From the NCBI GenBank assembly GCA_009837395.1, contig VXTP01000016.1, positions 132,631 to 194,473 on the forward strand: a DNA stretch of 61,843 bases. Direction: 5' to 3'. Shown here in pieces: positions 44,196 to 46,342 of this stretch. Each line of letters opens with the position of its first letter. Positions within the stretch are counted from its first letter, which is position 1. Source of the stretch: Gemmatimonadota bacterium. GTDB lineage: Bacteria; JAAXHH01. The position numbers and the translations under genes are program-made. A model generated the notes under the pieces. That model was given only the letters and a program-made list of their open reading frames with translations, was not told the origin of the DNA and did not search any database.

Positions 44196-44807
44196 ATGTC
44201 ACGTTCCTATACAAGTAACGTGTTTCTCAATTTCCCAATTGATGCTAAATACAGGTCGATCAGAAACGCTATGGTGTTTTCTGTCTACGACTGTGGGTTT
44301 GTTCCGAGATGTGCGCTCGAAATTGACAATAGCGGTGAGGTAAGGTTTGATCGCATACAGCGACTTATAAATGAATCCAAGTTCGGGATTCATGACATTT
44401 CAAGAACTGAACTGGATTCAGCCACCAACCTGCCCAGGTTTAATATGCCATTGGAACTGGGAGTATTTATTGGTGCGAAACGATACGGCAGTGCCAAACA
44501 GAAACAGAAAAACTGTCTGATACTTGATATTGAACAATACCGGTACCAGACGTTCATTTCCGACATTGCGGGGCACGATATTCGTTCTCACTCAAATGAA
44601 CCAGAGCAGGCTATCGATCATATACGAAACTGGTTGAATAACGCCTCTGGTCGCATAACCATACCAGGTGGCAGCGAAATCCGGCGCCGTTTCCGACAAT
44701 TCGAATCCGATTTGCCAGAAATGTGTGAGGCCATCCCGATCGAACTAGACGAACTCACCTACAATGACTACTCCAATTTTGTATCTGCGTGGCTTCGCGA
44801 GAACTAA
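44196..44807 (+). CDS. Conserved Rossmann/TIR-like protein of unknown function
   Basis: A 203-aa soluble protein that I associate with a widespread uncharacterised family: 'VFLNFPIDAKYRSIRNAMVFSVYDCGFVPRCALE' (about 9-42), 'RFDRIQRLINESKFGIHDISR' (about 50-70), 'RFNMPLELGVFIGAKRYG' (about 81-98), and 'LILDIEQYRYQTFISDIAGHDIRSH' (about 108-132). Alternating strands and helices, with conserved Glu and Arg in the 'LPRFNMPLELG' stretch, resemble TIR- or SLOG-like nucleotide-processing folds often found near defence genes; this is inference. The gene is clearly AT-richer than its surroundings, a sign of recent transfer. It is 3 nt after the H1-like gene. GTCACG only precedes the ATG, so translation probably depends on coupling. 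Confidence 0.8.
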   Translation: MSRSYTSNVFLNFPIDAKYRSIRNAMVFSVYDCGFVPRCALEIDNSGEVRFDRIQRLINESKFGIHDISRTELDSATNLPRFNMPLELGVFIGAKRYGSAKQKQKNCLILDIEQYRYQTFISDIAGHDIRSHSNEPEQAIDHIRNWLNNASGRITIPGGSEIRRRFRQFESDLPEMCEAIPIELDELTYNDYSNFVSAWLREN

Positions 44808-44829: not shown

Positions 44830-44923
44830 GGGTTGCTAAACCTCCTCATAGCAGTGAATTCACTCGCCCACTGAACCTTTTCCCCTCGAACTTCGCCCTG
44901 TTAGATGAAGGGAGAGCGATCTA

Positions 44924-46342
44924 ATGGGGTTCCTCGATGATCAGATGCTGGTCCAACAGATTCGGGCCGGCGACGAGCAGGCCTTCGTGACGCTGATCCG
45001 CCGCTATGAACGTTCGCTGGCTGCATTGATCCGGGATCGTATCGGTGCCGTGGACGCGGTCGAAGACGTGCTGCAGGAGACGCTTGCACACGCCTGGTCG
45101 GGACTGCGCGATAAATCACCCCGACATGTGCGAGCCTGGCTTTACCAGGTCGCGCGCAATCGTTGCGCCGACTACCTGCGCTCAGCACAACGAAGGGAGC
45201 AATTCGTCGACCCGGAGGAACTCGCAACCATGTTGAACCGCTTCGGTGTGCCGGCGGTCCGCCAACGCCGGGCAGCGAAGGATGTGGTCGATGCTTTCGA
45301 TCACGTACCCGAGAAGGAACGGGCGGCACTCAGGTCGTTCTACCTGGATGGGTTGAGCATAGCGGAAATCGCGGCCCGGCATCGCTGTCCGCCGGGAACC
45401 ATCAAGCGAAGGTTGTCCCACGGCAGGGACATGGTCCGCACCGAACTGGGCGTGACCACGAACAGAAGGAGCACGGCCATGAGCGCAGAAAGCAGCACAG
45501 GGAAGAAGGGGTTTCCGGAACTTCGGCCCCACATATCCATCGAGAAAAGTACAGGTACCCCTTTCTCCATCGATTTCCGGGAGCTGGCCTGGTGGTTCAT
45601 CGTTCCCGAAATCGGCGAGCAGGTCTGTTGGGCCGACTACGAGCCAGCCCGCGATGGAACGGTCTGGAGGTTGACCGAAGACAAGACCGCGGCCGCCTCC
45701 CGCCGCGCGATCATACACGGACGGGAGTGCGTCGAGATCGAGATCGAGGAAAATCGGCATAGGGATCGGGAGAGGCTACTTCCGCTAAACCATGATCCGG
45801 ACAAGACAGCCCGCCATACCCGATTCTGGGGCTGTCTGACAGAGACAGAGGTGCACTGGCTGGCCGTCGAGAGCATGAAATTCGATGGTACCAGGGAATT
45901 GCTGACCTGTCTCGATGAAGATTTTGGATGGGATTGGGGCATGTCGCCTCGTCAGGTCGAAGACAAGGACTATCTGACGGAGCAACCGGACGGATCATTG
46001 GCGAAGAATACGGATGCGACGCAGGTATTCTCGCACGGCCTTTACACATTGCGCATCGGCGACCGGGCTTTCGAATGCATGCGCGTGTTCGACATCGACG
46101 AAGATGCGTCCGAACGTGCGGTGCTGGTCATGGCGTTCGTCACCCGCGCGGGCCGCACGGTCCTGTTCCGGCGATACAACGGAAACCTCTGGGGAAAGCG
46201 GGAGAAGCCGCCCCACTCCTGGGGCGTCGAAATGACGTGGGAGGAGGATCTGCCGCATACCGACCGCCTCGTAATCGATGGCGTCAAGTACGTACATCAC
46301 TACGACAGCCTGACGGACGTGGCATGTGGACTGAAAGTATAA
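44924..46342 (+). CDS. ECF-type sigma factor fused to a C-terminal domain of unknown function
   Basis: A 472-aa protein. Residues 1-180 are a complete ECF sigma factor: region 2 'QAFVTLIRRYERSLAALIRDRIGAVDAVEDVLQETLAHAW' and region 4 'AFDHVPEKERAALRSFYLDGLSIAEIAARHRCPPGTIKRRLSHGRDMVR'. The remaining 290 residues are Trp- and acid-rich beta-type sequence ('WWFIVPEIGEQVCWADYEPARDGTVWRLTEDK', 'TLRIGDRAFECMRVFDID', 'ERAVLVMAFVTRAGRTVLFRRYNG') with no helix-turn-helix or membrane segment; it could be a sensor or autoinhibitor. Met186 has its own AAGGAG 7 nt upstream, so the domain may also be made alone. No anti-sigma gene is adjacent. Confidence 0.85.
   Translation: MGFLDDQMLVQQIRAGDEQAFVTLIRRYERSLAALIRDRIGAVDAVEDVLQETLAHAWSGLRDKSPRHVRAWLYQVARNRCADYLRSAQRREQFVDPEELATMLNRFGVPAVRQRRAAKDVVDAFDHVPEKERAALRSFYLDGLSIAEIAARHRCPPGTIKRRLSHGRDMVRTELGVTTNRRSTAMSAESSTGKKGFPELRPHISIEKSTGTPFSIDFRELAWWFIVPEIGEQVCWADYEPARDGTVWRLTEDKTAAASRRAIIHGRECVEIEIEENRHRDRERLLPLNHDPDKTARHTRFWGCLTETEVHWLAVESMKFDGTRELLTCLDEDFGWDWGMSPRQVEDKDYLTEQPDGSLAKNTDATQVFSHGLYTLRIGDRAFECMRVFDIDEDASERAVLVMAFVTRAGRTVLFRRYNGNLWGKREKPPHSWGVEMTWEEDLPHTDRLVIDGVKYVHHYDSLTDVACGLKV
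45466..45481 (+). promoter_or_regulatory. Internal ribosome binding site and ATG within the sigma fusion gene
   Basis: AAGGAG (45466-45471), a 7-nt gap, then an in-frame ATG (45479-45481), exactly at the junction between the sigma part and the C-terminal domain. Use would give a separate 287-aa protein ending at 46342. Confidence 0.55.

Follow-up and report, generated by a model that had tools for sequence, protein, structure and literature searches.

An ECF sigma factor fused to an undescribed C-terminal domain, with a conserved internal start predicted to give the free domain as a second product

ECF sigma factors with fused domains are already known, but how most of these domains work is not. 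In a 61,843-nucleotide stretch of contig VXTP01000016.1 from a Gemmatimonadota bacterium (the window), a first-pass annotation pointed to an ECF sigma gene that continues in frame into a long C-terminal domain (CT) and carries a possible second translation start at the border of the two. The locus raises the question of whether one gene makes both the fusion and the free CT and, if so, what the free domain would do to the sigma factor.

Layout of the fusion gene and nature of its C-terminal domain

A check of the open reading frame (ORF) and its domains upheld the described layout, with an in-frame fusion, two complete sigma regions and, at the domain border, an AAGGAG Shine-Dalgarno (SD) sequence 7 nt before an in-frame ATG, all at the positions originally given:

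44873-44899, plus strand: ECF-type promoter GAAC-N17-CGCCCT (-35 GAAC at 44873-44876, -10 CGCC at 44894-44897), 24 nt before the start codon; an exact match and the only one in the window
44907-44914, plus strand: primary ribosome binding site GAAGGGAG, from the sequence; anti-SD duplex -8.4 kcal/mol
44924-46342, plus strand: full ORF of 472 aa, ECF sigma factor, linker and CT domain; open in 10 same-genus genomes
44993-45196, plus strand: sigma-70 region 2, aa 24-91 (Pfam PF04542, 1.1e-11)
45284-45427, plus strand: sigma-70 region 4, aa 121-168 (Pfam PF08281, 6.7e-11)
45455-45505, plus strand: linker, aa 178-194, predicted disordered (pLDDT <50 in the AlphaFold2 model of the fusion)
45466-45471, plus strand: internal SD AAGGAG, 7 nt before the ATG; conserved in 10 of 10 same-genus genes
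45479-46342, plus strand: nested ORF from the internal ATG at 45479, predicted free CT domain of 287 aa; all-beta, with separate-gene homologues

Sigma70_r2 (PF04542) and Sigma70_r4_2 (PF08281) both score above their Pfam cut-offs in the window protein, and TIGR02937 from NCBIfam is above its own, which fits the ECF class; Pfam gave no match to sigma region 3. No anti-sigma gene lies among the neighbouring genes examined, as had been noted, and no zinc-finger anti-sigma was found beside the fused gene, which in this respect departs from canonical ECF pairs with their adjoining anti-sigma gene. The same-genus loci have no conserved adjacent partner gene; their neighbours are only loosely shared and include no visible anti-sigma, and a conserved neighbour as partner of the fusion was rejected on these grounds. 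The 203-aa ORF directly upstream of the fusion (44196-44807) is without a Pfam match and is absent from most same-genus loci.

The 287-aa CT has no match in Pfam or NCBIfam. A PDB search by sequence with a 58-member CT profile found nothing, and Pfam scans of the 58 members individually returned nothing at significant levels. The early description of CT as a domain of no known family thus stands, a known extension domain was rejected, and CT is, as judged from its sequence, an undescribed domain family. Its proposed beta character agrees with an all-beta AlphaFold2 model (pLDDT 92, pTM 0.89). Foldseek returned only weak matches to this model, with a YmcC-like exported protein first and LolA-type lipoprotein carriers next (best match 3fzx, E 1.4e-3, TM 0.34/0.44); from this weak fold resemblance, binding of a hydrophobic ligand by CT is conceivable. 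The full-length model has a disordered linker and gives no confident arrangement of the domains (pTM 0.54); CT is not confidently packed against the sigma, no inhibitory contact is seen, and a sigma-CT docking taken from this model was dropped.

Among the passages compared from a review of ECF sigma factors (PMC8999054), none of the extension domains named corresponds to CT. One close likeness is to ECF41, in which an ECF sigma has a fused, SnoaL-like C-terminal domain and no adjacent anti-sigma, and which combines a conserved promoter with what seems to be only one target (PMC3426412 and passages of PMC8999054). In contrast to the ECF41 extension, CT is about twice as long, is also encoded by a separate neighbouring gene and comes with a conserved internal start, and the SnoaL-like domain of ECF41/56/205/294/295 has no Pfam match in CT or its 57 relatives. 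Regulatory C-terminal extensions, some thought to be fused anti-sigmas, are also reported in parts of that review for ECF238/CorE, ECF42, ECF48/52/53 and ECF243 (IutY), whereas CT showed no cysteine-rich, TPR or zinc-finger domain. It contains about six scattered cysteines in 287 aa and no CXC cluster, unlike CorE; it is all-beta without a TPR match, unlike the TPR-rich helical extension of ECF42; and it has neither a zf-HC2 match nor, in its model, helices of membrane-spanning length, unlike ECF48/52/53. The same passages describe no two-product coding arrangement for these groups.

Conservation of the fusion and of the internal start

The fusion gene is present in 10 of 12 genomes of the genus, the window included, with CT identities of 75-92%, and is also open in at least six lineages beyond it; CT domains of a second Latescibacterota clade are 52-55% identical. 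Two genomes without the fusion hold only a separate, distant CT gene (35% identity; G008) or only a CT fragment (G009), and no close relative of the window's sigma was found in these two or in two other searched genera of the family (best matches 28-29%). Sigmas with a fused or directly adjacent CT match the window's sigma profile at E 1e-34 to 1e-112, with one very diverged fusion (L136, 1e-19) as the exception among fused sigmas. A tree of 71 CT domains contains at least four changes between fused and separate forms, with long deep branches of unsure order. The first-pass annotation had allowed that a lost stop codon made the fusion; because the frame is open in all 10 recovered same-genus genes and in many other lineages, a lost stop does not explain it and was rejected. 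One degraded copy (L083:1297-1746, genome G520) has its sigma cut in region 4 and its CT internally deleted, with the frame still kept.

The internal start stays constant at a place of high residue variation. AAGGAG, the 7-nt spacing and the ATG are kept in all ten same-genus genes while the codons there read RRS, KRR, TRS or GRR. In a codon alignment of these ten genes, AAGGAG is the only invariant one of 364 six-base stretches that span at least four different residue combinations. The second Latescibacterota clade has GAGGAG at the same junction position. Across 21 intact fusion genes, 20 have a linker ATG with anti-SD pairing of -6.0 to -11.8 kcal/mol in a linker of 18-26 codons; these genes are related and the 20 are not independent trials, though at least seven diverged groups are covered, the window's genus included. 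Only 12 of the 143 other internal in-frame ATGs in those fusions reach -7.7 kcal/mol. Outside this set, L136 carries AAGGAGG ahead of its linker ATGs. One fusion (L090) has no internal start. The invariant hexamer and the ATG comparison together reject a chance SD at the junction, and the ribosome binding site on which the two-product proposal hinged is kept across diverged fusions.

In the window gene the internal site pairs about as well with the anti-SD as the primary one (-8.0 against -8.4 kcal/mol). The mRNA folds more weakly at the junction than in most of the gene (top 6 percent), an only moderate accessibility that is supportive, not decisive. A conserved SD and start at the domain border, the mark of nested two-product genes, are thus present, and from these sequence features it is very likely that one gene gives two products, the fusion and the free CT.

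A natural deletion bears on the same prediction. In the sister sequences L019 and L022, which count as one event, a deletion with the same breakpoint has removed the promoter along with region 2 and half of region 4, and the SD, ATG and an intact CT are kept. CT is single-copy in each genome and dN/dS between the two is 0.15. Because both retain this sole, selected CT after the loss of the sigma, CT is, on the evidence of these substitution rates, maintained under purifying selection without it, presumably made from the internal start.

The probable self-promoter and CT as a separate gene

GAAC-N17-CGCC stands with the same spacing directly ahead of fusion genes in diverged lineages and of an adjacent-gene relative (L047), with CGTC in L088, and the GAAC -35 element of ECF-type autoregulatory promoters is thus found upstream across clades. 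Within the genus, all searched genomes with the fusion gene have the strict pattern at that gene, and it has no exact match in G008 or G009, both without the fusion. Since the promoter precedes the sigma gene across clades, autoregulation is implied, and we infer that this sigma reads GAAC-N17-CGCC, which fits the earlier label of a self-regulating sigma. Other strict matches in the genus are scattered and no commoner than those of a reversed-pattern control, and strict and looser patterns gave no other site common to all genomes with the gene. A wider regulon was rejected, several recurring looser matches looking, by eye only, like coding sequence; the strict motif may miss weaker targets.

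In G409, whose fusion is the one without an internal ATG, a separate CT gene sits nearby on the same strand and is preceded by a further copy of the promoter; in G499 and G500 the order is promoter, CT gene, fusion. These few cases are suggestive.

Stand-alone CT genes beside sigma genes had been proposed as a test of the domain's independence, and they exist. In L044 the sigma stop overlaps the CT start (TAATG), and in L047 the sigma frame runs on past the start of CT, whose ATG lies in another frame behind AAGGAGGAGGACG. In three further operons (L051, L084 and L094) a diverged CT gene lies downstream of a sigma gene and then a zf-HC2 anti-sigma gene, the zf-HC2 match being above the Pfam cut-off in two and just below it in L094. 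The fused gene thus resembles canonical ECF/zf-HC2 pairs through these relatives but has no such anti-sigma beside it, and the L051 sigma matches the window's sigma profile far more weakly (1.6e-15) than sigmas with a fused or adjacent CT. Because CT coexists with a zinc-finger anti-sigma in these operons, it need not itself be an anti-sigma.

About 40 CT copies have no sigma nearby, most of them in Poribacteria; of 35 such loci there, 26 have a gene for a PhyH-family dioxygenase upstream of CT and in the same orientation (e.g. L026:4697-5509). No promoter of the fused type was found ahead of these orphan Poribacteria genes except for two matches at about -225. Since most Poribacteria copies have neither an adjacent sigma nor such a promoter, CT also has a role independent of this sigma. 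The loci let the same domain be compared in all its arrangements, namely joined to the sigma, in an overlapping neighbouring gene, behind a zinc-finger anti-sigma gene, and by itself.

Several minor observations concern these loci. The CT frame of L043 has 263 codons. In L084 a gene for a small, apparently membrane-anchored protein with a weak DUF4064 match (2306-2785) separates the zf-HC2 anti-sigma gene from CT. Upstream of their diverged CT copies, L131 (671-1273) and L133 (14-880 on the minus strand, numbered along that strand) carry genes that by eye look like degenerate sigma factors, with a region 4-like stretch; neither matched the sigma profile. The Poribacteria genome of L024 (G101) has 67 sigma-domain matches, many of them within open frames 800-1,000 aa long, which makes up a sizeable set of ECF sigmas whose extensions are very long.

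Possible roles of the free domain

We lean towards a nested two-product gene in which CT is the regulatory partner of a self-activating sigma. Sequence comparison strongly supports the fusion, the internal start, the separate CT relatives and the self-promoter. The gene would give two nested products with a common stop codon, a linker-tethered sigma-CT and a free CT from the internal start, CT descending from, or interchanging with, a free-standing protein whose gene lies immediately 3' of the sigma gene. By transcribing its own gene from GAAC-N17-CGCC, the sigma would amplify both products on activation. CT would most likely be the regulatory partner that replaces a separate anti-sigma gene, probably sensing a cytoplasmic ligand and holding the attached sigma off or setting its activity, and the free CT would act in trans to damp the loop, as a competitor for the surface, ligand or dimer interface that the attached CT uses. 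Both proteins are probably made, with CT regulating the sigma and its effect presumably inhibitory, perhaps as the sensor or decoy first suggested. If free and fused CT are made side by side, the free form should be a competitor for the partner or ligand of the fused one, and a damping or decoy role is therefore favoured. The polarity of the effect cannot be read off the arrangement because fused domains are reported to inhibit in ECF41 yet to be required for activity in CorE and ECF42 (PMC8999054, PMC3426412).

The main rival to a damping or decoy role is that CT is the output, a ligand-binding or enzymatic effector whose amount is raised by a sigma acting as a single-target autoregulator, with the fusion mainly coupling CT production to the sigma. 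This would suit the promoter pattern, of which the searched same-genus genomes with the gene all share just one match, that at the gene itself, as well as the separate G409 CT gene under the same promoter, the survival of CT alone under purifying selection, the PhyH neighbour in Poribacteria and the apparent control of a single transcript by ECF41 sigmas (PMC3426412). An output protein needs no fusion to its sigma, yet the fusion stays open in many lineages, and weaker targets may escape the strict motif; we consider an output role unlikely. It is less likely still that the attached CT is a conformational sensor needed for activity, as in CorE or ECF42, with free CT serving as a ligand buffer or dimer partner. 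Fused ECF extensions can act positively, according to passages of PMC8999054, and the modelled beta fold, with its weak YmcC/LolA resemblance, could bind a hydrophobic ligand, but adjacent-gene relatives indicate that the sigma can be made without an attached CT.

The internal start could also be a functionless leftover of a fusion made by stop loss between overlapping genes. Adjacent relatives overlap by a few bases, so a small mutation easily fuses them. A useless site would decay, however, yet this hexamer persists over changing residues in different genera and in separate fusions, and CT has outlasted the deletion of the sigma; such a relic is very improbable.

Under the preferred nested-gene reading, a sigma and its own free regulator would be in-frame products of one self-activating gene, so that each sigma burst makes a trans-acting brake at a ratio set by two ribosome binding sites, and CT would found a new family of sigma partners. 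We put this fuller form forward tentatively, as a distinct possibility. A search of freely accessible literature found no sigma factor gene with an internal start yielding a free regulator. Two-polypeptide phage endolysins likewise use an in-frame internal start to make a full-length protein and a free C-terminal part, in one case as a 1:5 complex (PMC9430671), but they are phage cell-wall enzymes, not regulators, with no homology to CT. Cas11b also comes from an internal in-frame start within a larger gene, according to parts of PMC11899642, but is a CRISPR effector subunit and an unrelated protein. The conserved start leads to a testable prediction, a two-protein circuit encoded by a single gene in uncultured bacteria. 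It also provides a functional link for a domain family that has no name, and it warns that the second product, the free CT, will escape gene callers.
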